Source of the DNA: Prauserella flavalba
Lineage (GTDB): Bacteria > Actinomycetota > Actinomycetes > Mycobacteriales > Pseudonocardiaceae
Reading direction: 5' to 3'
Assembly (NCBI RefSeq): GCF_003202235.1
Contig: NZ_MASU01000013.1
Coordinates: 248,001-312,000 of the forward strand
Length of the DNA: 64,000 bases
The notes beneath the pieces are model-generated. The model was given only the letters and a program-made list of their open reading frames with translations, made no database searches and was not told the DNA's origin. The translations under genes and the position numbers were made by a program. Shown here piece after piece: positions 5,694-59,082 of this stretch; within the stretch, counting starts at the first letter, position 1, and each line of letters starts with the position of its first letter.

Positions 5694-5750
5694 CCGCAGT
5701 GAAGGCCACCTTCACTGCGTTGAACGCAGTGAAGGTGGCCTTCACTGCGG
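5694..5750. repeat. 57-bp perfect palindrome (GCAGTGAAGG family), full form
   Basis: Two 28-bp arms around a central G form a perfect palindrome. Each arm is itself a smaller hairpin (GCAGTGAAGG, loop CCA or TGG, CCTTCACTGC), so it can fold as one long stem or as two short ones. It lies 12 nt after the CocE stop and 20 nt before the stop of the convergent secreted-protein gene, as a bidirectional terminator would. It has no T-tract. Related copies are at 21230, 24559, 42055, 53940 and 59026. Confidence 0.9.
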
Positions 5751-5770
5751 CTGGCGCGTGGTTTACCGCG

Positions 5771-6046
5771 CTACTGGCCGCATTCGCCGTTGAGTTTGTG
5801 CTCGGAGAACGCGTTGGGGTTGGCAGACTGGAGCGCGCGCAGCGAGCTCTGGTCGGAGTGGGAACCGAAGCCGGGCGTCTGGCCGATCGGATCCGCGACG
5901 TCGCCGAGCGGGTGGTGTTCGAACGCGTTCTCGTTGGCGCAGTCGAACGATTCGACAATGGGATGAATTGTCGCCGACGCGATGCCGGACATCAGTCCGA
6001 ATGACAACGCGAGCGCTGCGAAAAACGCGAAAATCTTACGCTTCAT
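5771..6046 (-). CDS. Small secreted protein with a duplicated AN-NAF motif
   Basis: A 91-residue protein with a clear Sec signal peptide: MKRK, a hydrophobic core (IFAFFAALALSFGLMSGI) and a likely cleavage after ASA (about residue 25). The mature ~66 residues carry two Cys, one early (FDCANENAF) and one near the end (NGECGQ), probably a disulfide. They also carry an internal duplication: CANENAFEHHPLGD and SANPNAFSEHKLNG. I do not recognise the family. The gene and its upstream region are visibly richer in A and T than the surroundings. It converges on the CocE gene across a long palindrome. Confidence 0.75.
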   Translation of the reverse strand: MKRKIFAFFAALALSFGLMSGIASATIHPIVESFDCANENAFEHHPLGDVADPIGQTPGFGSHSDQSSLRALQSANPNAFSEHKLNGECGQ

Positions 6047-6125
6047 CGGGGGCCTCCCGGGCTTTCTCGGTGGTGAGGCTCGTCACTATCCGCCCGGAAG
6101 CCGTTGTTTTCAAGCACAGAATATT

Positions 6126-6163
6126 CACCCGGCAATTCTCGGGATCTCACGAATTGCCGGGTG
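6126..6163. terminator. Strong hairpin between the Gre-family gene and the secreted-protein gene
   Basis: CACCCGGCAATTC and GAATTGCCGGGTG are perfect 13-nt inverted arms around a 12-nt loop. The hairpin lies ~50 nt beyond the Gre-family stop and ~80 nt before the secreted-protein start, both leftward. It could terminate the Gre transcript or act in the leader of the secreted-protein mRNA. There is no clear T-run. Confidence 0.5.
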
Positions 6164-6183
6164 TGGCGGTTATTCATGAATTG

Positions 6184-6205
6184 CGGGGGCCTGTTGAAAC
6201 CCCCG
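6184..6205 (-). terminator. Short GC hairpin after the Gre-family gene
   Basis: CGGGGG and CCCCCG, separated by a 10-nt loop, begin 8 nt after the Gre-family stop codon. A short stem without a T-tract, as is usual in this phylum. Confidence 0.5.
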
Positions 6206-6212
6206 TTCCGGC

Positions 6213-9122: not shown

Positions 9123-9155
9123 TGTGCCCTGTCTGAATTGAGGCATCATCGGCCC

Positions 9156-11512: not shown

Positions 11513-11516
11513 CGCC

Positions 11517-19085: not shown

Positions 19086-19708
19086 TCGACTACATCCGGG
19101 ACGGGGCGGAGATCTACCGCCACTCGTTCGCCACGATCCGCGACGAGGCGGATCTCGCGATCCTGCCCGACGACATCGCCGGCGTCGCCGTGCGGATGAT
19201 CCACTCGTGCGGGATGGTCGATCTCGTCGACGACCTCGCCTACACGCTCGAGGTCGTCGAGGCGGGACGGGCCGCGCTGGAGGCTGGCGCGCCGATCCTG
19301 TGCGACGCGAACATGATCGCCAGCGGGGTCACGCGCAAACGGTTGCCCGCGAACAACGAGGTGCTGTGCACGCTCTCCGACGAGCGCGTGCCCGGCCTCG
19401 CCGAGCGCCTCGGCACCACTCGCTCGGCCGCCGCGCTGGAGCTGTGGCGCGACCGGCTGCCCGGTTCCGTCGTGGCGATCGGCAACGCCCCCACGGCGTT
19501 GTTCCGCCTGCTGGAGCTGCTGGAGGAGGGCGTCGGGGCCCCGGCCGCGATCATCGGCGTGCCCGTGGGCTTCGTCGGCGCCGTCGAGTCGAAGGAGCTG
19601 CTGATCGAACGCGCGCCCGCGCCGTACCTGGTGGTGCGCGGCCGTCGCGGCGGCAGCGCGCTCGCCGTCGGCGCCGTCAACGCGATCGCCTCGAAGGAGG
19701 AGGTGTGA
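19082..19708 (+). CDS. cobH: CobH, precorrin-8X methylmutase
   Basis: 208 residues. CobH moves the C11 methyl to C12, giving hydrogenobyrinate. The proton-donor His is in [10 protein letters not shown]; other signatures are [35 protein letters not shown] and [12 protein letters not shown]. It overlaps cobG upstream and cobIJ downstream by 4 nt each, so the three are translationally coupled. Confidence 0.96.
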
Positions 19709-21225
19709 GCACCGGCGTGCTGTACGGCGTCGGGCTCGGCCCCGGCGACCCCGAGCTGCTGACCGTCCGCGCCGCGCGGCTCATCGGTGAGGCCGACGTG
19801 ATCGCCTACCACTGCGCCCGCCACGGCCGCAGCATCGCGCGTTCGGTGGCCGAGCCGTACCTGCGCGAGGGTCAGGTCGAAGAGAAGCTCATGTACCCGG
19901 TGACCACGGAGACCACCAGCCACCCCGGCGGCTACGAGGGCGCGATCGCCGAGTTCTACGAGCTGTCCGCGAAGCGGCTCGCCGAGCACCTCGACGCCGG
20001 GCGCAGCGTGGTGGTGCTGTGCGAGGGGGACCCGTTCTTCTACGGCTCCTACATGTACATGCACGAGCGGCTCGCCGACCGCTACGAGGCACAAGTGGTG
20101 CCCGGGGTGACGTCGGTGAGCGCGGCCTCGGCCGTGCTGGGCAGGCCGCTCGTGCAGCGCGACGAGGTGCTCACGCTGCTGCCGGGCACGCTGCCGGCGC
20201 CGGAGCTGGCGCGCAGGCTTGCCGACACCGAATCGGCGGCGGTGCTCAAGCTCGGCCGCACCTTCGGCTCCGTGCGCGACGCGCTGGCCGAGTCGGGCAG
20301 GCTCGACGACGCGTTCTACGTCGAGCGCGCGACGTGGCAGGCGCAGCGCGTGGAGCCGTTCGCCGAGGTCGACCCGGAGACGGTGCCGTACTTCTCGCTC
20401 GCCGTGGTGCCGAGCCCGGCGTACGCCTCCCGCAAGTCGGGCGAGCCCGAGCCGGAGGCCCCCGCCCGCACGGGCAAGGGCGGGGGAGAGGTCGTGGTGG
20501 TGGGCCTCGGGCCCGCGGGCCCGGAGTGGCTCACGCCGGAGGCCGAGCAGGCGCTGGCCGAGGTCGAACACCTCGTCGGCTACGGCCCGTACCTGGCGAA
20601 GGTGCCACAGCACGAGGGCCAGCGCCGGCACGCGTCCGGCAACCGCGTGGAGGCCGAGCGGGCCGTCGAGGCGCTGGAGCTGGCCTCCGGTGGCGCGCGG
20701 GTCGCCGTCGTCTCCTCCGGTGATCCCGGGGTGTTCGCGATGGCCTCCGCGGTGCTGGAACAAGCCGAGCGGCCGGAGTGGGCGGGTGTGTCGGTGCGGG
20801 TGCTGCCCGGGCTGACGGCGGCGCAGGCCGCCGCGTCCCGCGTGGGCGCCCCGCTCGGGCACGACTATTGCGTGCTGTCGCTGTCCGACCGGCTCAAGCC
20901 GTGGGAGGTCATCGAGCGCAGGCTCGACGCGGCCGGTTCGGCTGACCTCGTCGTGGCGATCTACAACCCAGCCTCCCGCAGCCGCACGACCCAGCTCGGG
21001 GCGGCGAGGGACGTGCTGCTGCGGCACCGCGCGCCCGAGACGCCCGTGGTGATCGCGCGCGACGTCGGCGGCCCCGAGGAGTCCGTGCGCGTTGACACCC
21101 TCGGCGGGTTCGACCCGGCGACCGTGGACATGCGCTGCCTGCTCATCGTCGGCTCGTCCCGCACGAGGGTCCGTGAACAACCCGGCGGAGCCCCCATCGT
21201 CTGGACGCCCCGCAGCTACGCCTGA
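19705..21225 (+). CDS. cobIJ: CobI-CobJ fusion: precorrin-2 C20- and precorrin-3B C17-methyltransferase
   Basis: 506 residues containing two SAM-dependent corrin methyltransferases. Residues ~1-245 are CobI ([38 protein letters not shown]). Residues ~260-505 are CobJ ([54 protein letters not shown]). A charged, proline-rich linker joins them ([15 protein letters not shown]). Such fusions are common in actinobacteria. The CobJ half also performs ring contraction. Start is a GTG overlapping the cobH stop. The 3' end faces emb across a perfect palindrome. Confidence 0.95.
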
Positions 21226-21229
21226 ACGT

Positions 21230-21280
21230 CCCCCAAGGCCACCTTTGTTGCGTTGAACGCAACAAAGGTGGCCTTGGGGG
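21230..21280. repeat. 51-bp perfect palindrome, variant form
   Basis: Two 25-bp arms around a central G, perfectly complementary, lie 4 nt after the cobIJ stop and 17 nt before the emb stop. It shares the centre (CGTTGAACG) and the AAGGTGGCCTT block with the 57-bp copies but has different outer and middle bases (ACAA, GGGGG). Both arms changed together, so the long stem is kept while the small half-hairpins are lost. Confidence 0.9.
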
Positions 21281-21297
21281 CCGGTAGCACAGCCGGG

Positions 21298-24200
21298 TCA
21301 GCGGGTCGGCTGGTTGCCGTCGGGCTGTTGCGGGCCGGGGCCGGGGGACCACCAGCCGGGGCGGACCTCCTCACCGCGGATGATCGTCGGCGCCCTGCCC
21401 TGCGAGTACGGCTCCACCTGCTCCAGCGTGCCCCACTCCTGGCCCTCTGCGCCGAGCAGGAAGCTGGGTACCTCGGGCTGCTCCGCCAGCTCGTCGAGGA
21501 TGCCGTTGGGGCCGCCGGCCTTGCTCTCCGCCCATTCGCCCTCGGTGGCCAGCGAGGCCGCGGTCAGGTGGTAGGCGGGCACGTCCATGATGCCGTCGCG
21601 CACCTTCACCGGGTTCAGGCACGGGAACACGAACGACGTCGGCCAGTCCATGTACACGGGCTGGTTGCCGACGCGGTCGGTGAGCGTCGTGAACGTCGGC
21701 ACGCGGGGTGCGGTGACGGCGACCCAACCGTCCTCGGTGAGGTCGTCGTCGGTGGCCGCGACGCGCACCGTCCTGGCGTTCTCGGGCACCTGGTCGAGGT
21801 CGATGCGCACGTCGATCCAGTCGCCGGTCCCGGCGCCCGGCTCCAGCGCCGCCTTGCGGTCCACCACCTTGATGCCGTCGGGCGACTGTTCGCCGAACTG
21901 CACCTCGACGCCGGTGGCCTTGCCCGGCGGCGAGAACACCGCCAGCACGACCTGGCCGCCCTCCGGCCGGTTGCGCAGGTCGTACCAGTCGGTGCGCAGC
22001 CGTCCGGTGGGGTTCGCGGTCTCGTTGTAGCTGCTCCACATCGCCACGGTGCTCGGCGTGAAGCCGTGCGGCGGCTCGGCGAGCGGGTCGCCGGTGAGCA
22101 ACGGCTGCGCGTGGAATCCGGCCTGCGTCGGCCCGTTGCCCTCGTCGGCCTGTGGCAGCCCGCCCGGCGTGGTGGTCTTCTCGTCCTCGGCGGTGCGCTG
22201 CATTCCGGCGGGCAACGGGGTGAGCATGCTCGACACCGGGTCCCGCTCCACCATCACGTGGTCGCCGAGGCCGCAGTTCGGCCCGAAGAGCTGCTCGATG
22301 TTGGCGGCGCCGAGGCTGTAGGTGTCGCGCTGTTTGTGGATGGCCTTGGCCATGCTGCCGAACTCGGCGACGGCGACGAGGCCGCACACCACCACGAACG
22401 CGAGCGAACCCCGCCACAGCGCGAGGCCCCTGCGTTCCGGCTGCGGCGGAGGCAGGCCGGGGCGTTGTGCACGGATGTTCTCGATGAACGCGATCACCGC
22501 GAACACGGCGGCGGCCAGCAGGAGCACAGTGGACAGTCGTATGCCGAACAGCTGTGGCGGCATGTTCCACCACGGCACGCCCATGCGCGACACGTACCAG
22601 TACGCGTTGGGGCCGGTGATGGCGAGCGCGGCGACCACGAGCAGTCCCGAGACGAACGCGGCGCGGTTGCGTTTGGACCGCAGCACCGACGAGCTCGTCG
22701 CGAGCGCCGTCAACGCCGCCATGGCCGCACCGACGGCGGCGAACGCGCCGAAGTGGTGGGTCCACTTCGTCGGCGTCAGCGCCATCATCAGGAAGAACAG
22801 GGCGACCGTGCCGATGAGCCTCCGGCTCGGCCCGAGCGCCGCACCCGGGATGCGGCCGCGGCGCAGCAGCACCACGAGACACGTCCCGACGCACAGCAGG
22901 AGCAGCAGCACGGGGAACCGCCGCGACGCCGAGCCGTCGACGGTGGAGCTGAACAGCTGCTGATAGCGGATCAGCTCCTGGAACCACGACAGGCTCGGGC
23001 CGACCTCGTTGCGGATGCGCGTCGCCTCGGCGACCGTCGCGTACGTCTGGTCGGCGAACACCACCAGCAGCACCAGCACGCCCGAGGCGACGATCGGCGC
23101 CAGCACGTGGGTCCAGCCCGCCTCGCGCGCACGCTGGCGCAGCAGCTGGAACAGCGGCCGGGCGGCCACGAGGAACGGGGCGACGGCGATGAGTCCGGTC
23201 GGCGTCGCGGCGAGCGTGAACGCGGCGGCCAGCAGGCCGAGGCACACCGGCAGGAGCCTGCGCGTCACGAGCGCGCGCTCCACCGCGCACAGCGCGAGCA
23301 GCGAACCGACGGCGGCGACCGGCTCGGGGCGGGTGCCGTTGTTGTAGGGCATCCACCAGACGAGGAACACCACGGCGGCGGCCCAGCCCGCGGCACGGCT
23401 GGAGCGGACGGCCTTGCCGAGGCGCGGCATGACCTCCCTGCTGATCAGCATCCAGCTCAGCACGCCGAGCAGGAACGACGGCAGGCGGATCCACGGCGCG
23501 ACCACGCTGACGTGCGCCATCGCCTGGTAGACGTGGTAGAACCAGCCGAACGGGGCCTCGGCGACGCCGAACCAGCGGTGATAGTTGGCGAGGAATCCCG
23601 CGTCCTCGGTGACCCTCGCCATCGACAGGATGTAGCCGTCGTCCGACGTCACGGGTCCGATGAAGACCCACGCGCCGAGCGCGCCGATCACCGTGAGGTC
23701 GCGCCCGGTCAGCCGCCACCAGCCCACGGGCGCCCAGCGCGGGGCGCGTCTGGCGTAGCCGCGGTCGAGGCGGTTCACCGCGAACAGGCAGCCGATCATG
23801 GCGAGCACGCCGAGCACACACACGAAGAGCTTCAGCGTGGTCGGCGACGACTGGTAGCGCGTGTCCGGGGTGATCGTGACGCCGAGGCCGTCGATCGGAT
23901 CCTGACCGTTCTCGATCGTCGTGTAGATGCCGATGACGCGGGGGCGGACGTCGCCGTCCTGCTGGTAGACCGGCGTGCCGCCCACCGACAGCGACGTGCC
24001 GTGGGCGTTGGAATGGAACAGGACGTCACAGCCGGAGGGCGGCAGGGGCTGGCGCACCACCTGCTCGCCGCGGTTGTAGGCGACCAGCAGCCCGTCGTCG
24101 ACCCGCAGCTGCATGCCGGCGCCGTTGCCGAGGCGCGCGGCGGGCACGGTCGACATCAGCAGCGCGTCACCGGCGGTGCGCCCGTCGACGGACTGCACCG

Positions 24201-24480
24201 TGGGGCACGGGATCTCCATCCGCAGGTCCTGCGCCCAGTACCCCGCGAGCGGAGCGTTCACCTGCGTGGTGTCGCCGTCGGTGGGCCATTCGATGCGCGC
24301 GGTGTCCTGCACGACGGGCAGGAACGGGAACGCGAACGCGCACGCGGCGGCCACGAGACCCAGGAACAGCGCGAGTCTGCGCCACATCCGCGTCCGGTCC
24401 CGCGCGCTCGCGGCGGTGTCGGCAGGGGCTTCCGGCTCCCTGTCGGGATCTTGGGTGCGAACATCGGTGGCGGGCCGCAT
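21298..24480 (-). CDS. Arabinosyltransferase, EmbA/B/C family (GT53)
   Basis: 1060-residue polytopic membrane protein. A short Arg-rich cytoplasmic N-terminus (about 34 residues) is followed by a first membrane segment (LALFLGLVAAACAFAFPFLP), a periplasmic domain and then a dozen or so further segments. The catalytic acidic motif of GT-C enzymes is seen as TSDDGY at roughly residue 280. A large extracytoplasmic C-terminal domain after ~residue 690 matches the Emb carbohydrate-binding part (FFSPPGK-type region, WYDLRNRPEGGQ). The family builds cell-wall arabinan from decaprenyl-phosphoarabinose. It sits alone, between cobIJ and cobK, with no other cell-wall genes in view. Confidence 0.9.
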   Translation of the reverse strand: MRPATDVRTQDPDREPEAPADTAASARDRTRMWRRLALFLGLVAAACAFAFPFLPVVQDTARIEWPTDGDTTQVNAPLAGYWAQDLRMEIPCPTVQSVDGRTAGDALLMSTVPAARLGNGAGMQLRVDDGLLVAYNRGEQVVRQPLPPSGCDVLFHSNAHGTSLSVGGTPVYQQDGDVRPRVIGIYTTIENGQDPIDGLGVTITPDTRYQSSPTTLKLFVCVLGVLAMIGCLFAVNRLDRGYARRAPRWAPVGWWRLTGRDLTVIGALGAWVFIGPVTSDDGYILSMARVTEDAGFLANYHRWFGVAEAPFGWFYHVYQAMAHVSVVAPWIRLPSFLLGVLSWMLISREVMPRLGKAVRSSRAAGWAAAVVFLVWWMPYNNGTRPEPVAAVGSLLALCAVERALVTRRLLPVCLGLLAAAFTLAATPTGLIAVAPFLVAARPLFQLLRQRAREAGWTHVLAPIVASGVLVLLVVFADQTYATVAEATRIRNEVGPSLSWFQELIRYQQLFSSTVDGSASRRFPVLLLLLCVGTCLVVLLRRGRIPGAALGPSRRLIGTVALFFLMMALTPTKWTHHFGAFAAVGAAMAALTALATSSSVLRSKRNRAAFVSGLLVVAALAITGPNAYWYVSRMGVPWWNMPPQLFGIRLSTVLLLAAAVFAVIAFIENIRAQRPGLPPPQPERRGLALWRGSLAFVVVCGLVAVAEFGSMAKAIHKQRDTYSLGAANIEQLFGPNCGLGDHVMVERDPVSSMLTPLPAGMQRTAEDEKTTTPGGLPQADEGNGPTQAGFHAQPLLTGDPLAEPPHGFTPSTVAMWSSYNETANPTGRLRTDWYDLRNRPEGGQVVLAVFSPPGKATGVEVQFGEQSPDGIKVVDRKAALEPGAGTGDWIDVRIDLDQVPENARTVRVAATDDDLTEDGWVAVTAPRVPTFTTLTDRVGNQPVYMDWPTSFVFPCLNPVKVRDGIMDVPAYHLTAASLATEGEWAESKAGGPNGILDELAEQPEVPSFLLGAEGQEWGTLEQVEPYSQGRAPTIIRGEEVRPGWWSPGPGPQQPDGNQPTR

Positions 24481-24558: not shown

Positions 24559-24583
24559 CGCAGTGAAGGTGGCCTTCACTGCG
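24559..24583. repeat. Half-size palindrome overlapping the cobK stop
   Basis: A 25-bp single lobe of the palindrome family: CGCAGTGAAGG, loop TGG, CCTTCACTGCG. The TGA of cobK is the TGA inside GCAGTGAAGG, so the repeat supplies the last codons and the stop. It follows a gene whose next neighbour (emb) runs in the same direction. Confidence 0.88.
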
Positions 24584-38085: not shown

Positions 38086-38188
38086 GCGACGGCGGTGGGT
38101 CTGACTCCCGGGCGTACCCGGTCACAGTGGCGCGACCGTGCCGGAATCTCACCGGCTTCCATCCGCCATCGCGCAGCCCACCGAGGTT
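38086..38188 (-). ncRNA. Cobalamin riboswitch upstream of cbtB
   Basis: Reading leftward: P1 strand GGTGGGC (38176-38182), GGAAGCCGGTGAGATTCCGG, then CGCGCCACTGTGACCGGG with the B12 box GCCACTG (38125-38131), and the closing GGGAGTCAGACCCACC (38094-38109). The AGGAGG of cbtB follows ~40 nt later, after a GGGCCGC...GCCC segment that could pair near it. This is the second class-I cobalamin riboswitch in the window. Confidence 0.93.
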
Positions 38189-41843: not shown

Positions 41844-42047
41844 ATGGCCCAGCACATCGCCACGTTCTGCGGCAACTGCAACTGCGGCTGCCCCGAGCTG
41901 TTCGTCGACCATGAGGCACCGGAGGACAAGCGCGTCGTGATCACCGACGACTTCGGCCAGCGCATCCAGATGAGCCTCGACCAGTGGCAGGACCTGGTGG
42001 CCTCGGCCAAGGCGGGCACGCTCGACCTCCAGCCCCTCCCGGCGTAG
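41844..42047 (+). CDS. Small Cys-rich protein (CxxCxCxC)
   Basis: 67 residues, ATG behind GAGGAGG. It begins MAQHIATFCGNCNCGCPELF, with Cys at 9, 12, 14 and 16, then VVITDDFGQRIQMSLDQWQD and a helical end. The four closely spaced Cys would suit one metal or Fe-S site. The close fit of the rest to a strand-helix pattern suggests a folded domain. I recall similar actinobacterial proteins but no function. It is divergent from the metallophosphoesterase and convergent with gltD across a palindrome. Confidence 0.8.
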   Translation: MAQHIATFCGNCNCGCPELFVDHEAPEDKRVVITDDFGQRIQMSLDQWQDLVASAKAGTLDLQPLPA

Positions 42048-42054
42048 CCCCGAC

Positions 42055-42109
42055 CGCAGTGAAGGCCACCTTCACTGCGTTGAACGCAGGCATGGTGGCC
42101 TTCACTGCG
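42055..42109. repeat. Full-form palindrome, partly decayed
   Basis: The left half is the standard lobe (CGCAGTGAAGGCC...); the right half has 3 substitutions (GCAGGCATGG for GCAGTGAAGG), so the 27-bp arms pair imperfectly. It lies 7 nt after the Cys-rich gene stop and 13 nt before the convergent gltD stop. Confidence 0.85.
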
Positions 42110-42122: not shown

Positions 42123-43574
42123 TTACGCGATCGGGCGGTCCGTGGGGGCGATCGGCCTCGGGAGCACATCGCGGCCCGTGAGCTGGGCGTCCACGCCCGC
42201 GGCCGCGGAGCGGCCCTCCGCGATGGCCCACACGATCAGCGACTGCCCTCGGCCCATGTCGCCCGCCACGAACACGTTGTCCACGCTCGTCCGGTACGAC
42301 GCGTCGCGCTTGACGTTGCCGCGCTCGTCCAGCTCCACGCCGAGCTGTTCGAGCAGGCCCTCGCGCTGCGGGCCGACGAAGCCCATCGCCAGCAGCACCA
42401 GCTGCGCGGGCAGCTCCCGCTCGGTGCCCTCGACGGGCACGAACTTCCCGCCCTCGTTGCGCACCTCCACGAGCTTCAGCGCCCGCAGGTTGCCCTCGTC
42501 GTCGGCGAGGAACTCCTGCGTGTTCACCGAGTACAGCCGCTCGCCGCCCTCCTCGTGCGCCGACGACACCCGGTAGATCATCGGGTACATCGGCCACGGG
42601 TGAGCGTCCGAACGCGACTGCGGCGGCTTCGGCATGATCTCCAGCTGCGTCACCGACCTCGCGCCCTGCCGGTGCGCGGTGCCGACGCAGTCGGCGCCGG
42701 TGTCACCGCCACCGATCACCACGACGTCCTTGCCCTCGGCGGTGATCGGCGGGGCGTCGAGCGTGCCCGCCGCGACGCGGTTGGCGAACGGCAGGTACTC
42801 CATCGCCTGGTACACCCCGGCCGACTCGCGGCCCGGGATCGGCAGGTCGCGCCACGCCGTCGCGCCGCCGGCCAGCACCACGGCGTCGTACTCGGACCGC
42901 AGCTGCTCGACCGTGACGTCCTCGCCGACGTTCACGCCCGCGCGGAACTCCGTGCCCTCGGCCCGCATCTGGTCCAGCCTGCGGTCGAGGCGGTGCTTCT
43001 CCATCTTGAACTCGGGGATGCCGTAGCGCAGCAGGCCGCCGATCGCGTCGGCCCGCTCGAACACCACCACGTCGTGTCCCGCCCGGGTCAGCTGCTGCGC
43101 CGCCGCCAGCCCCGACGGGCCGGAGCCCACCACGGCGACCTTCTTGCCGGTGCGGGTCTCGGGCACCTGCGGGGTCACCCAGCCCTCTTCCCACGCGCGG
43201 TCGATGATCGAGATCTCGACGCGCTTGATGGTCACCGGGTCGTCGTTGATGCCCAGCACGCACGCGGTCTCGCACGGCGCGGGGCACAGGGTGCCGGTGA
43301 ACTCCGGGAAGTTGTTCGTGGCGTGCAGCCGCTCGATCGCGTCGCGCCAGTCGTCGCGCCACGTGAGCGTGTTCCACTCCGGGATCAGGTTGCCCAGCGG
43401 GCAGCCCTGGTGGCAGAACGGGATGCCGCAGTCCATGCAGCGGCCGGCCTGGTCCTTGAGCTTGGTCCGCTCGAAGTCCTCGTAGACCTCACGCCAGTCC
43501 TTGATCCGGATGTCGACCGGGCGCGACTTCGGCGTCTCCCGCTTCGTGGTCAGAAAACCCTTGGGGTCAGCCAT
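42123..43574 (-). CDS. gltD: Glutamate synthase small subunit
   Basis: 483 residues. N-terminal Fe-S cysteines: [20 protein letters not shown] and [16 protein letters not shown]-binding [13 protein letters not shown] and NADPH-binding [14 protein letters not shown], then [18 protein letters not shown]. It passes electrons from NAD(P)H to GltB. The start overlaps the gltB stop by 8 nt. Confidence 0.97.
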
Positions 43575-48099: not shown

Positions 48100-48535
48100 G
48101 GCTTGCCGCCCTCCTTGGCTCGGCACGACCGGGCCGGGCTGTCAGCCGGATGGGTGAGTCCCATCCGGCTAACGGTCCGGCCCGGAATCGCGATGGTCAG
48201 TCAGGGGAGTGGCGATGGCGTTCAGCCCGTAGTGGGCGCGCATATCGCCGGTTTTCGACCACACTCCTTTGTGCGGCTCGCGTCGAGCAGCGCGGCGCGG
48301 AGGCAGGGGTTTCTCCCGCCAGTTCCGGCGCGCGCCAAATGCTCCCGGGTTCGCCGGTCTTATGACAGTAGTGTGAAATCGCCGTTATCGGGATAGGGCG
48401 AGCGTTGCACGTGGGAAACAACACTGGAGGATTGACGAGGGCCCTCCCAGGTGTCCTTCCCTGCGGTGCGGTCGTGACCAGCGACGACGTCGCGGTCTTG
48501 ACCTTCCGTTTACCGTCTCCCCGGCGCTCGCCGGA
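48100..48535 (-). promoter_or_regulatory. Long gene-free leader/promoter region of gltB
   Basis: 436 bp without a credible gene. Close to gltB, AGCCGGATGGG and CCCATCCGGCT (48144-48170) form a perfect 11-bp stem with a 5-nt loop, ~45 nt before the start. Further upstream (48290-48380) is a GC-rich self-complementary stretch (for example CCGGCG/CGCGCCGG). A CATAAG lies near 48360 on the gltB strand as a weak -10 candidate. No known riboswitch core matched by eye. Confidence 0.5.
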
Positions 48536-49756: not shown

Positions 49757-52588
49757 TCAGCGGGACGAGTCGGTGATCGCGCGGTCGAGCACCTGCGCCA
49801 GGTGCAGCGCCTCGCGTTCGGTCAGCTCGCCGATCTGTGTGCGGCAGCTGAACCCGTCGGCGAGCACGAGTGTGTCCTCACTGGCGGCATTGACCTCCGG
49901 CACCAGCACCCGATTGGCCGCGGCCACCGACACCTCGTGGTGCCCGCGCTCGACGCCGAAGTTGCCGGCAAGCCCGCAGCAGCCGGAGTCGAGCGTGCGG
50001 TTGCCGACACCCACCTTGGCGAGCAGCCGCTCCTCGGCCGCGTTGCCGAACACCGCGTGCTGGTGGCAGTGCTGCTGTGTGATCGCCTTCGCATCGACGG
50101 CGGGGAACTCGACCTCCGGTGCGCGGGTCTCCAGGAAGCCGGCGAGCGTCGTCGCGTCGAGCTTCGGGGCGTCGTCGAGCAGGTCGTGCACGTCGTGGCG
50201 CAGCACGGCGAGGCAGCTCGGCTCCAGCCCCACGATCGGCGTGCCCGCCGCGATCTCCGGCTCCAGCGCCTTCAGCGTCCGGCGCAGGAGCCTGCGCGCG
50301 ATGCCCAGCTGACCCGTGGAGATCCACGTGAGGCCACAGCACACCGGGCCCTTCGGCAGCACCACCTCGAACCCGGCGTACGCCAGCACCCGCACCGCGG
50401 CCGTGCCGACCTCGGGGGAGAGGAAGTTCGTGAACGTGTCCGGCCACAGCACCACCCTCGGCCGGTCCCCGGCGGGCTTCGGCCGCTTCCTCAGTTCCTT
50501 GCGCAGCGACGTCGGGGCGAACTCGGGCAGGGAGCGCTCCGGCGTGATCCCGCCGAGCCGCTTCACCAGCGGCGCCAGGCGCGAGCCGAGCACGCCGTTG
50601 GCCACGCGCGGCATCGCCGAGGCGAGCCGTGCCCACAGCGGCAGGAACCCGAGCGAGTAGTGGCTCGGCGGGCGCACGCGCCGTGCGTAGTGCTGGTGCA
50701 GGAACTCGGCCTTGTACGAGGCCATGTCCACATTGACCGGACAGTCGGAGAGGCAGCCCTTGCACGCCAGGCACAGGTCCAGCGCGTCGCGCACCTCGGT
50801 GGAGCGCCAGCCGTCGGTGATCGTCTCCCCGCGCATCATCTCGAACAACAGATGCGCGCGCCCGCGCGTGGAGTGCTCCTCCCGCCGGGTGGCCATGTAG
50901 CTCGGGCACATCACGCCCGTGGAGGTGTCGACGCACTTGCCGACACCGACGCAGCGCCGCGTCGCCGTGGCGAGGCTGCCGCCGTCGTGCGGGTACTTCA
51001 GCGTCACCGGCAGCTGCCGCAGCGGGCCGTCGAACCGCAGGTCCGCGTCGAGCCTGCGCGGGTGCACGAGATTGCCGGGGTTGAGCAGGTTCTCCGGATC
51101 CCAGATCTCCTTGAACGCCTCGAACAGGCGCAGGATCTCGGGGCGGTACATGCGCGGCAGCAGCTCGGCCCTCGCCTGCCCGTCACCGTGCTCGCCCGAC
51201 AGCGAGCCGCCGTGGGACACCACGAGATCGGCGGCGTCCTCCATGAACGACCGGAACCGCCGGATGCCCTCGGCCGTGGTGAGCGGGAAGTCGATGCGGA
51301 CGTGGACGCAGCCCTCGCCGAAGTGGCCGTAGGGGATGCCGCGCAGCCCGTGTTTCTCCAGCAGGGCACGGAAACCGCGCAGGTACGAGCCGAGCTGCTC
51401 GGGCGGCACGGCGGCGTCCTCCCAGCCGGGCCACGCCTCCGAGCCTCCCCCAGCCCCGGGGGGCTGGGAGGTGCCCCCAGCCATCCGTGTCGCGATGCCG
51501 GCCGACGCCTCGCGGATAGACCACAGTCCCCGCATGTCGGCGGGGTCGCTCGCGATGACCGTGGTAGCGCCGGTTTCGACGCCCAGCGTCTCCGCGACCT
51601 CCTCGGCCCGCGCGAGCGTGCTGTCCGCGTCGTCGCCACCGATCTCGATGAACAGCCAGCCGCCGCCCTCGGGCAATCGGTCGAGCGCGGGCGTGCGCCT
51701 GCTCCGCACCAGGAGCGTGTCGATGAGGTCGGCGCCCATGCCCTCGATCGTCAACGGCCGCAACGGAAGCACGTGCGGCACGGCATCGGCCGCGGCGACG
51801 TCGTCGGCGTACCCGGCGACCACGAGCACCCGGGACGCGGGCGACGGGACGAGCCGCACGGTCGCCTCGGTGAGCAGCACGCACGTGCCCTCGGTGCCTA
51901 CGAGCGAGCGCACCACGTCGAACCCGTTCTCGGGCAGCAGCGCGTCGAGGGCGTAACCGGACACCCTGCGGGGCAGCGCAGGAAAGCCCGTCCGCAGCAG
52001 TGCCAGGTTGCCGTCGACGAGCTCCCGCAGCCGCTCGCGCAGCCCGGCGTCGTCGAGCGAGGGGCCGATCGTGAGCCGCTTGCCGTCCGCGGTCAGCACC
52101 CCGAGCGAGACGACGTTGTCGGCGGTGCGGCCCCACGCCACGGAATGCGAGCCGCACGCGTCGTTGCCGATCATGCCGCCGAGGGTGCAGCGGCTGTGCG
52201 TGGACGGGTCGGGGCCGAACGTGAGCCCGTGCCGCGCCACCTCCGTGCGCAGCGTGTCGAGCACGACCCCGGGCTGCACCCTGGCGGTGCGGTTCACCGG
52301 GTCGATCTCCAGCACGCGGTTGAGGTGGCGGCTGTAGTCGAGCACCACGCCCTCGCCGAGCGCCTGCCCGCCGATGCTCGTGCCCGCGCCCCTCGCCGTG
52401 ATCGGGACCCCGTGCGCTCGGCACACCCGCAGCGTGGCCTCGATGTCCTCGGCCGAGCGCGGGAACACCACCGCGCGCGGGACGTGCCGGTAGTTCGAGG
52501 CGTCCATGCTGAACACCGCACGCGCGGTGCGGTCGCTCTCCACCTCGCCGGTGACGGCCTCCGCGAGTTCCGCGGCGAACGTGCTCAC
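49757..52588 (-). CDS. FAD/Fe-S oxidoreductase, YdiJ-like D-2-hydroxyacid dehydrogenase
   Basis: 943 residues from a GTG in a GTGA overlap with the upstream gene. The N-terminal FAD_binding_4 domain has ITARGAGTSIGGQALGEGVV and GGMIGNDACGSHSVAWGRTA. The FAD-oxidase C domain has PYGHFGEGCVHVRIDF and SGEHGDGQARAELLPRMY. From ~residue 545 come Fe-S motifs (CVGVGKCVDT...MCPSY and CLACKGCLSDCPVN) and CCG units (PVCCGLTWIS, SGCCGLAGNFG). The arrangement matches E. coli YdiJ, a D-2-hydroxyglutarate dehydrogenase. A short Gly/Pro-rich insert (near residue 375) comes from a palindrome. Confidence 0.85.
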   Translation of the reverse strand: MSTFAAELAEAVTGEVESDRTARAVFSMDASNYRHVPRAVVFPRSAEDIEATLRVCRAHGVPITARGAGTSIGGQALGEGVVLDYSRHLNRVLEIDPVNRTARVQPGVVLDTLRTEVARHGLTFGPDPSTHSRCTLGGMIGNDACGSHSVAWGRTADNVVSLGVLTADGKRLTIGPSLDDAGLRERLRELVDGNLALLRTGFPALPRRVSGYALDALLPENGFDVVRSLVGTEGTCVLLTEATVRLVPSPASRVLVVAGYADDVAAADAVPHVLPLRPLTIEGMGADLIDTLLVRSRRTPALDRLPEGGGWLFIEIGGDDADSTLARAEEVAETLGVETGATTVIASDPADMRGLWSIREASAGIATRMAGGTSQPPGAGGGSEAWPGWEDAAVPPEQLGSYLRGFRALLEKHGLRGIPYGHFGEGCVHVRIDFPLTTAEGIRRFRSFMEDAADLVVSHGGSLSGEHGDGQARAELLPRMYRPEILRLFEAFKEIWDPENLLNPGNLVHPRRLDADLRFDGPLRQLPVTLKYPHDGGSLATATRRCVGVGKCVDTSTGVMCPSYMATRREEHSTRGRAHLLFEMMRGETITDGWRSTEVRDALDLCLACKGCLSDCPVNVDMASYKAEFLHQHYARRVRPPSHYSLGFLPLWARLASAMPRVANGVLGSRLAPLVKRLGGITPERSLPEFAPTSLRKELRKRPKPAGDRPRVVLWPDTFTNFLSPEVGTAAVRVLAYAGFEVVLPKGPVCCGLTWISTGQLGIARRLLRRTLKALEPEIAAGTPIVGLEPSCLAVLRHDVHDLLDDAPKLDATTLAGFLETRAPEVEFPAVDAKAITQQHCHQHAVFGNAAEERLLAKVGVGNRTLDSGCCGLAGNFGVERGHHEVSVAAANRVLVPEVNAASEDTLVLADGFSCRTQIGELTEREALHLAQVLDRAITDSSR
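51444..51482. repeat. GC-rich palindromic insert inside the YdiJ-like gene
   Basis: CCTCCCCCAGCCCC faces GGGGCTGGGAGG, with a 2-nt bulge, followed by another CCCCCAGCC. It encodes an in-frame Gly/Pro/Ser-rich segment (AGGTSQPPGAGGGSEAW) between otherwise conserved sequence. It looks like the mobile GC palindromes known in Streptomyces, inserted without breaking the frame. Confidence 0.6.
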
Positions 52589-53862
52589 CAGTTCTCGATC
52601 GAGTCGGCGAAGATCGCGGCGATCTCCTCTTCCCGCACTGCCCTCGGTGCCACGGCCAGTAGCCGTTGCTGCTGCATGGTGCCCTCCACGAGTGCGTCGA
52701 TGTCACCCTCGCCGTAGCCGACGCCGCCGATGCCGTTCGGGATGCCGATGTCGCGCATGAGCGATGACAGCACGTACGGCAGCTGCTCGCGCTCACTGGA
52801 CTGCCTCGGTGCGTGCGGGTCGAGGATGCGCGCGGCGTGGACGTGCTTGGCGGGGTCGGTGGGGTAGGTGAACCGGAACGCGGCGGGTGCGGTGAGGGAC
52901 ACCGATTCGCCGTGCGGCACCAGCGCCTCCTCCTGTGGGTAGTTGTTCGGCCGGTACTCCCGCACCCGTCCGGCGATGGGGTAGGCGCACGCGTGTGGAA
53001 TGTGCACGCCGGCGTTGCCGAAGCCCATGCCGGCGAACGTCGCCGCGAGCATCATGTCGGTGCGCGCTTCGAGGTCGCCGCCGTTCAGCACCGCCTTGCG
53101 GAACGAGCGCGCGAGCAGGTGCAGTGCCTGCTCGGTCCAGGCGTCGGAGATGGGGTTGGAGCCGTTGTAGGCCACCCGGTTCTCCGGCTTGTGCCGGGCG
53201 AACGACGTGTAGGGCTTCGCGGTGTAGGACTCCAGCGCATGACAGAGCACGTCCATGCCGCTCGCGGCGGTCACCTCGGGCGGCATCGACAGCGTCAGCA
53301 GCGGGTCGACCACGGCCATGCTCGGGCGCAGCCGCGGATGGCTGATGCCCGACTTCACCTTGAGCCCGAGGAAGTCCATGATGCACACGGGCGTGGTCTC
53401 CGAGCCCGTGCCCGCCGTGGTGGGGACCGCGACGAGCGGCTTGAGCGGACCGGCGGGTGCCTTGCCCTGGCCGATGGGCTTGTTGACGTAGTCGAAGAGG
53501 TCCGCGGGGTAGGTCGTCATCAGGTTGATGGCCTTGGCGGTGTCGATCGACGAGCCGCCACCGACCCCGATGAAACCGTCCCAGCTGGACTGGCGCGCGA
53601 ACTCCACCGCCTCGGTGATGCTCACGTCGGTGGGCTCGACATGCACCTGGTCGTAGACCTCGACGGTGAGCCCGCCCGCCTTGGCGGCGTCGGCGACCCG
53701 CTGTGGCACGCCGGTCGCGGCGACGCCGGGGTCGGTGACGATCAGCACGCGCTCGGCGCCGAGCTGGGCCAGGTCCCAGCCGATCTCGTCGACGGCTCCC
53801 GCGCCGAACTTGAGCGGCGTCGCTCCCCAGGTGAAGACGGTCTCGTTCAGGTACTCGGTCAT
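52585..53862 (-). CDS. Hydroxyacid-oxoacid transhydrogenase (iron-type alcohol dehydrogenase family)
   Basis: 425 residues from the ATG behind GAGGAGG. It begins MTEYLNETVFTWGATPLKFG, as in ADHFE1/HOT proteins. Fe-ADH features: FIGVGGGSSIDTAKAINLMT (NAD-binding), VAVPTTAGTGSETTPVCIMD, DVLCHALESYTAK and GNAGVHIPHACAYPIAG with metal His. Known HOT oxidises 4-hydroxybutyrate to succinic semialdehyde while reducing 2-oxoglutarate to D-2-hydroxyglutarate. The next gene would re-oxidise that product. It is first in the operon, behind an inverted repeat. Confidence 0.87.
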   Translation of the reverse strand: MTEYLNETVFTWGATPLKFGAGAVDEIGWDLAQLGAERVLIVTDPGVAATGVPQRVADAAKAGGLTVEVYDQVHVEPTDVSITEAVEFARQSSWDGFIGVGGGSSIDTAKAINLMTTYPADLFDYVNKPIGQGKAPAGPLKPLVAVPTTAGTGSETTPVCIMDFLGLKVKSGISHPRLRPSMAVVDPLLTLSMPPEVTAASGMDVLCHALESYTAKPYTSFARHKPENRVAYNGSNPISDAWTEQALHLLARSFRKAVLNGGDLEARTDMMLAATFAGMGFGNAGVHIPHACAYPIAGRVREYRPNNYPQEEALVPHGESVSLTAPAAFRFTYPTDPAKHVHAARILDPHAPRQSSEREQLPYVLSSLMRDIGIPNGIGGVGYGEGDIDALVEGTMQQQRLLAVAPRAVREEEIAAIFADSIENW

Positions 53863-53925: not shown

Positions 53926-53939
53926 GTCAAGTCCCCCAT

Positions 53940-53966
53940 CCGCAGTGAAGGCCACCTTCACTGCGG
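53940..53966. repeat. Half-size palindrome after the GntR gene
   Basis: CCGCAGTGAAGG, loop CCA, CCTTCACTGCGG: one 27-bp lobe of the palindrome family with perfect 12-bp arms. It lies 15 nt downstream of the GntR stop and upstream of the transhydrogenase promoter, both genes leftward. Confidence 0.88.
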
Positions 53967-53981
53967 ACGGGGTTGTGCCGG

Positions 53982-54698
53982 TCAGCCCGGGAAGTTCGTC
54001 CAGTCGAGGTTGAGCTCGGGCAACGGCGTGTCGCCGGTCCCGCCCGCGGCCGCCTCCTGGCCGAGCAGGAGCTGGGCGGTGTGCAGCAGGTGCGCGCGCA
54101 TCGACTCCGCGGCCTCGCGGGCCTTGCCGTCCTCGATGAGATCGAAGATCACCTCGTGCTCGCCGAGGATGTCGTGCATCGTTCGGGAGCGGTCGACGGT
54201 CGAGTTGCCGCGCACGAGCACCATGTCGCGCAGCGAGTCGATGTAGTGGGCCAGCCGCAGGTTGCCCGACGCGGCGTTGATGGTCTGGTGGAAACGCCGG
54301 TCGGCGGCCATGAACGCGGCCTCGTCGTGCTGCCCGGCCGCGGTCCGCATGGCGGCGAGGTGCCCGCTCAGCTCCTCGATCCAGCCCGGCGGGCGCTGGC
54401 CCGTCGCCCGGAAGGTCGCGGGAACCTCCAGCAGCAGCCGGATCGCGAAGACCTCCTCCAGGTCGTGCAGCGACGTCTGCAGGATCCGGATGCCGCGGTT
54501 GCGCTCGAACCGCACCATGCCGCGCTCGGAGAGCTGGATCAGGGCCTCCCGGACGGGGGTGCGCGAGACGCCGAGCCTGGCTGCGAGGTCGTGAACCGAG
54601 TACAGGGCGCCGGGGGTCAGCTCCCCGCTCACGATCGCGCCCCTCAGCTCGTCGAAGATCTCCTTCGCGAGGTTGCGGTCGGTGTCGATCTGGCGCAT
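53982..54698 (-). CDS. GntR-family regulator with FCD domain
   Basis: 238 residues from MRQIDTDRNLAKEIFDELRG (earlier in-frame starts lack similarity). Winged helix ~10-75: TPGALYSVHDLAARLGVSRT then PVREALIQLSERGMVRFERN. The C-terminal FCD domain has the metal ligands typical of the class: DRRFHQTINAASGN and HEVIFDLIEDGKAREAAESM, ending HLLHT. It probably responds to a hydroxy or keto acid and controls the transhydrogenase operon downstream. Divergent from the lipoprotein gene; a GCACGCGTGC palindrome (54711-54720) lies between. Confidence 0.9.
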   Translation of the reverse strand: MRQIDTDRNLAKEIFDELRGAIVSGELTPGALYSVHDLAARLGVSRTPVREALIQLSERGMVRFERNRGIRILQTSLHDLEEVFAIRLLLEVPATFRATGQRPPGWIEELSGHLAAMRTAAGQHDEAAFMAADRRFHQTINAASGNLRLAHYIDSLRDMVLVRGNSTVDRSRTMHDILGEHEVIFDLIEDGKAREAAESMRAHLLHTAQLLLGQEAAAGGTGDTPLPELNLDWTNFPG

Positions 54699-56413: not shown

Positions 56414-56798
56414 CCTTGTTGAGCTCCGCCTCGTGACGCACGGCCCAGTCGGCGAGCGCCGACAGCGGTTCGAGCAGGCTGCGGCCCAGCGGCGTGAGGC
56501 CGTACTCGACGCCGGGCGGCACCGTCGGGTGCACCTCGCGCCACACCAGCCCGTCGGCCTCCAGGCCGCGCAGCGTACGGGTCAGCATGCGCTGGCTGAT
56601 GCCTTCGACGGCCCGGTGCAGCTCGTTGTACCGGTGCGGGCGCGTGCCGAGGAGGATCACCAGCAGCATGCTCCATTTGTCGCCCACTCGGCGGAACACG
56701 TCGCCCACCGGGCATGCGGCGAGCTCGTCGGGCGGCACCGGGCGAGGCAGGTCGTGGGCGAGTACCGAGGGAACACCGGTGTTCGTTCCGGACATCAA
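56382..56798 (-). CDS. HxlR-family transcriptional regulator
   Basis: 138 residues. CPVGDVFRRVGDKWSMLLVI, with the N-terminal Cys typical of redox-sensing HxlR proteins, then YNELHRAVEGISQRMLTRTL and RGLEADGLVWREV as winged helix. It is divergent from an SDR gene, its likely target (72-bp gap). The 3' end overlaps the lipoprotein gene. Confidence 0.92.
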   Translation of the reverse strand: MMSGTNTGVPSVLAHDLPRPVPPDELAACPVGDVFRRVGDKWSMLLVILLGTRPHRYNELHRAVEGISQRMLTRTLRGLEADGLVWREVHPTVPPGVEYGLTPLGRSLLEPLSALADWAVRHEAELNKVRRTAPNRSG

Positions 56799-56870
56799 AC
56801 TGCCTTCTTTCGGTCCGCGGCGGGACGGCCGACGATGAGTCGGTCGATGTCGAGCCTAGGGAGGAAGATC

Positions 56871-57707
56871 GTGCCGAGCCAACCACCGAGGACCGTGGTC
56901 ATCAGCGGTGGAACCGACGGCATGGGGCGCGCGACCGCGCTGGAACGGCTCTCGCGGGGCGACCACGTCACCGTGATCGGCAGCAGCGACGCCAAGGGCC
57001 GCGCGCTGCTGGACCACGCCGCGAACCCGAATCTCCGGTTTCTGCGGGCGGATCTGTCGTCGATCGCGGAGACGGAACGGGTGATCGCGCGGATCGGCGA
57101 GGAACACGAGAGCGTCGACGCGCTGGCGTTGTTCGCCAACCGCGTCAACCCGAAGCGGCGGGAGACCGAGGACGGCCTGGAGGCCACGTTCGCCCTGTAC
57201 TACCTGAGCCGCTACCTGCTCAGCCACGGGCTGCGCCCGCTGCTCGACGCAGGCACCGACCCGGTGATCGTCAACGTCGCCGGGGTGGGCAACACCGCGG
57301 GGCGGATCCACTGGGAGGATCCCCAGCTCACTCGCGGCTACGGCCAGGTGCGTGCTCAGCTGCAGGCGGGTAGGGCGAACGACCTGCTGGGTGTCTGGTT
57401 CGCCGAGCAGGCGGCGAGCAAGGCGCGCTACGTGCTCTACCACCCCGGGTTCACGCGCAGCGGGGTCGACGGTCACCCGAACCCGGTGGTCCGGCGAGCG
57501 CTCGGGCTGCTCGCGAAGGCCTTCGCCCGTCCGGTGGCGGACTCGGTGCGGCCGATCGTGGAGTGGATCGACCGGCCGCCGGCGGAACCGCTGTCCGCGA
57601 TCGACCGGGGCACACCCGTCGGCAGTTCGCTGAAAACCCTCGATCCCGGCGCCGCGGCCCGGCTGGCCGCCTACACCGAGAAGGTGCTCAGCGGCCGAAC
57701 CACGTGA
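56871..57707 (+). CDS. SDR-family oxidoreductase
   Basis: 278 residues from a GTG behind GGGAGGAAG; upstream ATGs in frame are less well placed. Nucleotide-binding VVISGGTDGMGRATALERLS; FLRADLSSIAETERVI; NRVNPKRRETEDGLEATFAL; VIVNVAGVGNTAG. The usual YxxxK is not evident (YGQVRAQLQAGRANDL), so it may be an atypical SDR like WWOX- or retinol-type enzymes. Controlled presumably by the divergent HxlR protein through a redox or electrophile signal. Confidence 0.85.
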   Translation: MPSQPPRTVVISGGTDGMGRATALERLSRGDHVTVIGSSDAKGRALLDHAANPNLRFLRADLSSIAETERVIARIGEEHESVDALALFANRVNPKRRETEDGLEATFALYYLSRYLLSHGLRPLLDAGTDPVIVNVAGVGNTAGRIHWEDPQLTRGYGQVRAQLQAGRANDLLGVWFAEQAASKARYVLYHPGFTRSGVDGHPNPVVRRALGLLAKAFARPVADSVRPIVEWIDRPPAEPLSAIDRGTPVGSSLKTLDPGAAARLAAYTEKVLSGRTT

Positions 57708-58013
57708 GCGCGTCGAGCGTCGGTGCCGTGGGCAGCCCGCGCCGGCAGCCGTTCAGGTTGGAGTCTCGGCCGCACCCCGCATCGCGGGGTGCGGCGTCGA
57801 TGAGCCCCGGACGATGTCCGGTCCGAGGTGGACAGTGGCGGCCAGGCCGTGTCCAGGCTTTCTCCTGGCACACGGCGGGCGAGCCTGCCGTCGGTGAGCC
57901 CCGGAGAAGCGGCGGAGCTCACCGCTGAGCCCCAGCTTCGCGCACAGTCCGGCCACGGGGAAGGTCTGCACCCGGCCAGACCGTAGGGACTCCGGGGCGG
58001 GGCGGTCGAGCGA
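57708..58013. other. 306-bp gap between SDR and mtnA with several hairpins
   Basis: No credible gene. Contents: the hairpin at 57770-57794, a smaller CCGGAC/GTCCGG stem at 57807-57821 and a GGTGAGC/GCTCACC pair around 57893-57930. This gap separates two convergent genes and probably holds transcription ends for both. Confidence 0.5.
57770..57794. terminator. Strong GC hairpin downstream of the SDR gene
   Basis: CCGCACCCCGC, loop ATC, GCGGGGTGCGG: perfect 11-bp arms 62 nt past the SDR stop and without a T-tract. Confidence 0.6.
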
Positions 58014-59009
58014 TTACCGCGCCGTACCCGCGACCACGCCGTGCTCGGTGACGACCGCGGTGATCAGGTCGACGGGGGTGACGTCGAAGGCCGGGTTGAA
58101 CACGGCGGCGTCCTTCGGCGCGACCGGGTTACCGGCGACGTGGGTGACCTCCTCGGGGGCGCGTTCCTCGATCACGATCGCGCCGCCGTCGGGCAGGCTC
58201 GCGTCCACTGTCGACGACGGGGCCACGACCACGAACGGCAGGCCGTGGCGGGCGGCGGCGAGCGCGAGGCCGTAGGTGCCGATCTTGTTGGCGGTGTCGC
58301 CGTTAGCGGCGATGCGGTCGGCTCCCACCACGACGCCGTCGACGAGCCCGCGGGCCATCGCGGCGGCAGCGGCGGCGTCGGGCAGCAGCCGGTAGGGGAT
58401 CGCCTCCTCGGCCAGCTCCCACGCGGTGAGGCGGGCGCCCTGGAGCAGGGGGCGGGTCTCGTCGGCGAGCACGTACTCCAGCTCTCCCTCGGCGTGCAGG
58501 TGGCGGACGACGCCGAGCGCGGTGCCCCAGTCGACGGTGGCGAGGCGGCCGGTGTTGCAGTGGGTCAGCAGGCGCAGCGGGCGGCGGGCGCAGGTGCCCA
58601 GCAGCAGCCGCGCGGCGTGTGCGGACGCCTCGCGGTTGACGCGCTCGTCCTCGTCGAGCATGGCCAGCGCCTCGGCGAGCACGGCCTCGGCGCCGCCGGG
58701 CAGCTTCGTGAGCGCACGCTCGACGCCCCAGCGCAGGTTGACGGCGGTGGGCCTCGCGGTGGCGAGGCGCCCGGCGTCGGCGTGCACGGCGGCGGTGTCG
58801 GCGCCGTGCCGGTGAGCGGCGAGTGCGACCCCCAGCGCGCCGGCGGCGCCGAGCGCGGGCGCGCCGCGCACGGCGAGGCGCTGGATGGCGCCGATCAGCT
58901 CGTCGACCGTGGCCAGGCGCAGCAGCCGGTGCTCGGCGGGCAACGCGCACTGGTCCACGATCACCACGGTTCCGTCGGCCCAGTCGATCGTTCGTCCCAC
59001 GTGACCCAT
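58014..59009 (-). CDS. mtnA: Methylthioribose-1-phosphate isomerase
   Basis: 331 residues from [20 protein letters not shown]. Signatures: [20 protein letters not shown], catalytic Cys in [40 protein letters not shown] with the Asp. It isomerises MTR-1-P to MTRu-1-P in methionine salvage. It could also be an eIF2B-like paralogue, but both active-site residues are in place. No other salvage genes in the window. Divergent from trpB2 with two palindromes between. Confidence 0.92.
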
Positions 59010-59025
59010 TCTCCCGGTCCGCTCT

Positions 59026-59082
59026 CCGCAGTGAAGGCCACCTTCACTGCGTTCAACGCAGTGAAGGTGGCCTTCACTGCGG
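59026..59082. repeat. 57-bp perfect palindrome, full form, in a divergent gap
   Basis: Identical arms to the copy at 5694, with the centre base C in place of G (that is, opposite orientation). It lies 16 nt upstream of mtnA and 122 nt upstream of trpB2. It is the one full copy not between convergent genes. Confidence 0.9.

Follow-up and report, generated by a model that had tools for sequence, protein, structure and literature searches.

Palindromes in the 64-kb window

The stretch analysed here, called the window, comprises 64,000 nucleotides of the Prauserella flavalba genome (contig NZ_MASU01000013.1, positions 248,001 to 312,000), and its subject is a short palindromic repeat that lies mostly between genes. 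A sequence-only reading had listed six copies, full two-lobe copies in three convergent gaps and half copies between co-directional genes, and had proposed that the form of the element follows gene orientation. All six copies were located at the places given. With up to 3 mismatches allowed, the pattern GCAGTGAAGG-N3-CCTTCACTGC gave eight matches in the window, far above chance, the average over 100 shuffles being 0.00. Our own gene calls gave the same orientations for the neighbouring genes (Table 1), and the cobK stop codon does lie within the repeat. The description of the three convergent copies as two-lobed held for their context and only in part for their structure, as the copy reported at 21230 (21227 here) belongs to a different stem class and is not two-lobed, and the second lobe of the 42054 copy is imperfect.

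Table 1. Copies of the palindrome in the window and the genes on either side (positions of the window; + and - are strands; ORF, open reading frame)
Position	Form and class	Structure	Gap	Left flank	Right flank
5694..5750	full, class C	57 nt, arms of 28 nt; each of the two lobes folds by itself	convergent	X-Pro peptidase gene, 3660-5681 +	91-aa ORF, 5771-6046 -, no Pfam match
21227..21283	full, class T	single long hairpin; half hardly folds alone	convergent	tetrapyrrole-methylase gene, 19705-21225 +	EmbC-like gene, 21298-24480 -
24560..24582	half, class C	single lobe; carries the cobK stop codon	co-directional		cobK, 24576-25349
42054..42109	full, class C	second lobe (42086) imperfect, 3 mismatches	convergent	67-aa ORF, 41844-42047 +, no Pfam match	glutamate-synthase small-subunit type gene, 42123-43574 -
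53942..53964	half, class C	single lobe; complementary arms span 53934-53972	co-directional	iron-type alcohol dehydrogenase gene, 52585-53862 -	GntR-type regulator gene, 53982 to 54698 or 54842, -
59026..59082	full, class C		divergent	IF-2B-type gene, 58014-59009 -	PLP (pyridoxal phosphate)-dependent enzyme gene, 59205-60557 +

Architecture of the repeat

The genome sampled (8.09 Mb in 39 contigs) contains 237 matches to the exact 23-nt lobe pattern and none to the reversed control. The half-site of the family is AAGGCCACCTT (L) or AAGGTGGCCTT (R), and 218 exact L-N15-25-R pairs are present in the whole genome. Forms and gene contexts were tallied in a sample of 1.264 Mb in total, made up of 1.2 Mb of contiguous stretches and the window, in which genes were called by our own script and no annotation was used. 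The L-R spacing was exactly 19 nt in 56 of 56 pairs in this sample, with 13 to 27 nt allowed, and lobe starts lie 30 bp apart (for example, 5696 and 5726).

Three forms occur: a single lobe (half), two inverted half-sites 19 nt apart that make one 25-27-bp hairpin (full), and a long form with a structured insert that places about 70-75 nt between the half-sites (17 exact long copies genome-wide, 58-88 nt allowed). The sample held 63 full, 10 long and 11 half copies by a looser definition that separates the long forms; an earlier definition gave 56 full and 25 half. The insert of the long form is oriented and has its own GTCTCC...GGAGAC stem, as in the copy at 88507-88602 of contig C3 of this genome (G000).

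There are also two stem classes. Class C has GCAGTG/CACTGC around the core, because of which its halves fold by themselves (-15.2 kcal/mol); the whole element gives -56.6 kcal/mol as one long hairpin and -33.4 kcal/mol as two adjacent lobes. In class T the outer arms read CCCCC/GGGGG and the inner ones TGTTG/CAACA (CCCCC-AAGGCCACCTT-TGTTGCG...), with energies of -3.3 kcal/mol for the half and -52.6 kcal/mol for the whole, which forms a 25-bp hairpin in the copy at 21227. Judged by both outer arms, the 63 full copies divide into 35 of class C and 28 of class T, none being mixed. Nine of the 11 half copies are class C, and the two of class T adjoin a degenerate long form or a full copy (by eye).

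Placement relative to genes

Full copies were found in 40 convergent, 19 co-directional and 2 divergent gaps and twice in genes; the corresponding numbers are 5, 4, 1 and 0 for long copies and 4, 5, 0 and 2 for half copies. Among gaps of at least 45 nt, 47 of 106 convergent ones were occupied, compared with 27 of 337 co-directional (P = 6e-16) and 3 of 189 divergent ones, and in gaps of 45-100 nt the occupancy was 34/59, 5/136 and 0/45, respectively. Copies in co-directional gaps lay nearer the upstream stop codon in 26 of 28 cases, and 12 genes of the sample end on a TGA within a lobe (one further listed match was false and was excluded).

The strong 3'-end position and convergent enrichment that the sequence-only reading took for a transcript-end pattern stand. 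The other half of that reading, by which full copies would end transcripts in both directions and half copies in one, with gene orientation setting the form, fits the six window copies with one exception and did not extend to the sample: full versus half was independent of convergent versus co-directional context (P = 0.26), 19 of 63 full copies were co-directional and 4 of 11 half copies convergent. A symmetric hairpin would, moreover, serve one direction too.

One class C half copy (contig C2, about 299147) sits within a 13.5-kb ORF that looks peptide-synthetase-like by eye, and the same place in the sister genome described below holds a full class T copy. The situation is reminiscent of the palindromic elements that lie within genes of Rickettsia.

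Hairpins at gene ends

Convergent gene ends of this genome with a family half-site within 80 nt had a hairpin of z < -2 in 88% of cases (n = 86), and convergent ends lacking the family in 40% (n = 126), both for gaps of at least 45 nt. The proportion was 25% at ends in co-directional gaps of at least 80 nt (n = 226) and 9% both ahead of divergent starts (n = 325) and at tight junctions within operons (n = 336). Hairpins are also frequent at the orthologous ends of relatives, taken whatever the orientation of the next gene. With one ortholog per genome, gltD ends had z < -2 in 22 of 29 and z < -3 in 20 of 29, with the family present in 2 of 29 (29 of 30 loci from 40 genomes searched, a distant paralog being excluded); emb ends had z < -2 in 24 of 45, with the family in 1 of 45 (45 of 46 loci, the partial locus L121 being excluded). 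As non-family ends and those of relatives often have hairpins, the family stands at positions that frequently carry a hairpin of some other sequence. Such hairpins at the same places are the main argument for a putative transcript-end role of the family.

Two observations made by eye concern such ends in other genomes. In five Amycolatopsis loci (L093, L098, L109, L113 and L120) hairpins with a common foot like CTCGTGAGTG...CACTCACGA (one variant GTGAGCG) and differing paired stems stand right after the emb stop codon. In genome G001, which was tried as a syntenic relative and dropped for having too few long matches, many of the listed convergent gaps contain unique strong hairpins.

The near lack of T-tracts, also noticed in the sequence-only reading, was confirmed. 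In convergent full copies, the 10 nt that follow the stem contained on average 1.7 T in class C (44 ends) and 2.5 T in class T (36 ends), compared with 1.5 in non-family convergent gaps; none of these 80 ends had a run of 4 T, and at least 4 T in 10 nt were present at 7 of 80. The element has the GC-rich hairpin just after the stop codon that is expected of an intrinsic terminator, and the U-tract after the stem is missing. Term-seq of Streptomyces clavuligerus, in the excerpt of that study used here, gave 353 structured ends with few U and 182 U-rich ends (PMC8269248), and a T-tract-free hairpin end is therefore ordinary for such genomes. The Prauserella ends resemble the 'HS-U-lack' ends of that study, which are likened to I-shaped terminators, in having a GC-rich hairpin after the stop codon and few U; they differ in being a repeated sequence and in being known from sequence, the S. 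clavuligerus ends having been mapped by Term-seq (PMC8269248).

Comparison with the sister species

A congener (G002) is syntenic, with about 93% DNA identity. It is probably the same assembly as P. endophytica L076, so the two are not independent. A site was counted as shared when the element lay between flanking anchors less than 1.5 kb apart; 43 of 49 shared sites were within 450 nt in both genomes. Of 58 sites of P. flavalba in three syntenic blocks, 49 hold an element in both genomes and 4 in this one alone, the other 5 being unmappable; the reciprocal view from G002 gave 50 of 56 shared, 3 only there and 3 unmapped. One of the three G002-only sites (contig C2, near 276984) retains an arm-like remnant in this genome, which suggests loss of the element here. 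The 26-nt stretch that carries the lobe at cobK occurs in this genome and is missing from G002/P. endophytica and from P. cavernicola, and the lack of the lobe in P. cavernicola as well makes gain in this genome likelier.

The copies of the two species thus mostly share their places, with differences as to which are present and in what form and stem class. A change of form is seen at 13 of the 49 shared sites and a change of stem class at 6; gene orientation, called separately in each genome, agrees at 47 of 49 sites, including 12 of the 13 form changes and all 6 class changes. For example, the copy at 12727 of contig C2 is full here and long in G002 with near-identical outer arms, and that at 351475 of the same contig is class T here and class C in G002 with conserved flanks. 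A full form in one genome may thus stand where its ortholog in the other is long, and the reverse. Since the repeat comes, goes and changes form, the changes of form falling almost always at sites of unchanged gene orientation, a rule of form by gene direction fails as stated, and we consider it improbable.

A weaker version of the orientation idea survives in that form is better conserved at convergent sites. The two genomes agree in form at 25 of 28 convergent sites, against 6 of 15 that are co-directional (P = 0.001), in a comparison that was noticed after viewing the data and on which several tests were run. The difference persisted for sites with equal orientation in both genomes (25/28 versus 6/14, P = 0.002, post hoc), for those within 450 nt (23/26 versus 5/13, P = 0.002) and for single copies (25/27 versus 6/12, P = 0.006). 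Part of it reflects class make-up, with a change of form at 1 of 19 single class T copies, convergent or co-directional, and, for single class C copies, at 2 of 12 sites between convergent genes and 5 of 8 between co-directional ones (P = 0.06).

Distribution and covariation

Of 150 Pseudonocardiaceae genomes, 18, this one included, contain the exact pair pattern, as do 5 of 121 genomes of an order-wide sample, all five Pseudonocardiaceae, with none in the 106 genomes of other families. Numbers of exact pairs vary widely, from 218 here and 176 in G002 to 2 and 0 in two other congeners, with 45 in genome G022.

Covariation was measured in 33 chosen, distinct 41-nt copies from 10 genomes and covers the inner stem only, because the core is fixed by the query. 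The inner 7-bp stem was paired in 85.3% of cells compared with 58.3% after shuffling, 65 cells showed a double change (23.7 shuffled), and a shift of the partner by 1-3 columns lowered the pairing to 23-43%. The inner stem therefore covaries across genera; kinship among the copies inflates these scores, and inverted duplication of a half could yield the same signal.

A repeat of similar layout and other sequence is present in Amycolatopsis. The emb end of A. marina carries CCCCAATG-TGG-CATTGGGG and then a second such lobe around CGTTGAA. This lobe occurs 39 times in A. marina and 125 times in A. palatopharyngis, with none in the two other Amycolatopsis genomes searched, and 14 of the 39 A. marina lobes are arranged as 7 pairs with a start-to-start distance of exactly 30 bp, the Prauserella register. 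Its stem is entirely different from that of the Prauserella family; the TGG/CCA loop and the spacing are common to both, with the loop order reversed (TGG first in Amycolatopsis, CCA first in Prauserella).

Fixed geometry might also indicate sites acting at the DNA level, bound as half-sites 30 bp apart by a nucleoid protein, topoisomerase or similar protein, with the position at gene ends incidental. The invariant 19-nt spacing and the 30-bp pairs with another stem in two Amycolatopsis genomes agree with this. We nevertheless regard it as very improbable, since the cross-genus covariation of the inner stem and the different Amycolatopsis stem suit a hairpin better than a protein site, and the element is nearly absent from divergent gaps.

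The same data allow a broader proposal, which is tentative and which we think rather unlikely as a whole. It holds that Pseudonocardiaceae have a mobile palindrome system, independent of REP-associated tyrosine transposases (RAYT; REP, repetitive extragenic palindromic), that takes over the transcript-end positions of its host. Such a system would be defined by its architecture (a pair of inverted half-sites at a distance of 30 bp, with TGG/CCA loops and a CGTTGAA-like middle) and not by its stem sequence. Stems would be lineage-specific, one stem class could be replaced in place by another, selection would keep the two-way form between convergent genes, and form would drift between co-directional ones.

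Relation to known repeats

The closest likeness is to REPs and bacterial interspersed mosaic elements (BIME). The excerpt of PMC3733652 used here describes REPs as lying mostly between convergent or unidirectional genes, near stop codons that they often supply, at less than 20 bp from both convergent stops in two families shown; it also describes REP dimers, some with structured spacers, and CGTC REPs apparently without a dedicated transposase. The Prauserella palindromes are likewise short, present in hundreds of copies, mainly extragenic (called genes contain 2 of the 63 full copies) and found as singles, inverted dimers and dimers with structured spacers. They, too, stand near 3' ends and between convergent genes, supply stop codons and are occasionally genic (compare PMC3733652). 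They differ from the REPs of that account in their 19-nt spacing, fixed in the sample, in their host group, Pseudonocardiaceae, in lacking a GTAG or CGTC tag (neither tetranucleotide appeared, by eye, in the flank consensus of the 35 class C and 28 class T full copies) and in that no Y1 transposase was found in the genome. As it matches the REP description and lacks both tags, the family is REP/BIME-like and lies outside the GTAG and CGTC superfamilies.

The Pfam model of RAYT (Y1_Tnp, PF01797) had no match in this genome, G002, G022, G012 or G145. It had two in G026, the remaining one of the five other carriers searched, and matched in 5 of 14 control genomes. REPINs are inverted dimers of a short palindrome moved by RAYT. 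The Prauserella family resembles them in having such a dimer as its repeated unit and differs in that PF01797 was mostly not found; RAYT-driven REPINs were accordingly rejected as an identity.

DNA uptake signals are repeated short words, many of them single and within genes. In Haemophilus and Neisseria their inverted pairs lie mainly between convergent genes and serve as terminators (PMC1852404, PMC5217627, both as excerpted), and in Neisseria, where the concentration between convergent genes is reported, there are generally 1,000 or more copies (PMC1852404). The Prauserella repeat shares the short word and the convergent inverted pairs, and is less numerous and rare in coding DNA, with hundreds of copies and with 2 of 11 single exact half-sites in called genes; it is not known to be connected with DNA uptake. 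That it consists of uptake signals doubling as terminators can be given almost no credence.

No report on this repeat was found among the matches listed in the open literature, judged by title or start of abstract (subscription journals and preprints being outside the scope), and searches by short words of the repeat gave no actinomycete paper, by title, among the matches listed.

A proposed mobile hairpin at transcript ends

We lean towards regarding the family as REP/BIME-like mobile palindromes that are kept as T-tract-poor 3'-end hairpins. Copies would spread by insertion and be retained where a 3'-end hairpin is useful, being selected against between promoters and starts. Once transcribed, the hairpin may end, pause or protect the upstream mRNA at its 3' end, and in convergent gaps would do so in both directions; it would be one of the T-tract-poor hairpins that GC-rich actinomycetes are reported to have, under the names 'HS-U-lack' or I-shaped. 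The hairpin that can form in the RNA probably helps to end transcripts. In favour of this reading are the placement after stop codons, the hairpins present at such ends where the family is missing, the covarying inner stem and the turnover between the two species.

A less probable account is that these are tolerated selfish repeats, spread by some enzyme and surviving after stop codons as the least harmful places, with no general role for the hairpin. The between-species turnover, the 12 stop codons within lobes and the convergent pair of G002 that has no element and stops 3 nt apart all agree with it, and REPs are placed in the same way, close to both convergent stops and supplying stop codons (PMC3733652). 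It is opposed by the other hairpins that occupy the same ends in relatives and in non-family convergent gaps here, and neutrality does not predict the contrast in conservation of form between convergent sites (25 of 28) and co-directional ones (6 of 14).

Several results weigh against the retention of mobile palindromes as 3'-end hairpins. The near absence of T-tracts lowers the odds of classical intrinsic termination, and a strong hairpin is missing from 7 of 29 ortholog ends at gltD and from 21 of 45 at emb. The gltD copy (42054) is missing in G002, where the two stop codons are 3 nt apart, and the element is therefore dispensable there. Hairpin energy shows no difference between convergent and co-directional full copies (P = 0.69), some copies sit within long ORFs, and the form-stability result is post hoc, with P = 0.06 for class C alone. 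Per-copy compensatory change within the genome was rejected, as halves permuted inside a class pair equally well except for the inner arms of class T (P = 0.02), and the palindrome may thus stem from inverted duplication and not from per-copy selection. The claims about RNA and about mobility are separate, and either could fail alone.

If the reading as retained mobile hairpins is right, a mobile repeat provides a considerable part of a genome's transcript-end hairpins and renews them by in-place replacement, the size of that part being indicated by the 47 of 106 occupied convergent gaps. One system would then bear on two questions, the T-tract-free transcript ends of actinomycetes and the mover of REP-like repeats in genomes where no RAYT is found.

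Window copies in relatives and other features

The nearest named relative of the EmbC-like gene is from Prauserella endophytica (96% identity), and P. endophytica L076 likewise holds a class T copy at the 21227 place. The half copy at 24560 was not found at the same place in P. endophytica or P. cavernicola. The place of the 53942 half copy carries a longer composite element in the sister genome, and that of the divergent copy at 59026 a full class C element, as here.

Rfam gave the copies no family identity; the only matches in the window at gathering thresholds were two cobalamin riboswitches (RF00174, RF01482) at 28408-28468 (+) and 38086-38172 (-), neither at a copy, and the window also contains cobalamin genes. 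An imperfect inverted repeat (59122-59168, 21-nt arms, 86%) adjoins the 59026 element and could be an operator. Another inverted repeat (48129-48185, 26 nt, 88% complementary) lies immediately ahead of the large glutamate synthase gene, whose start is taken as called.

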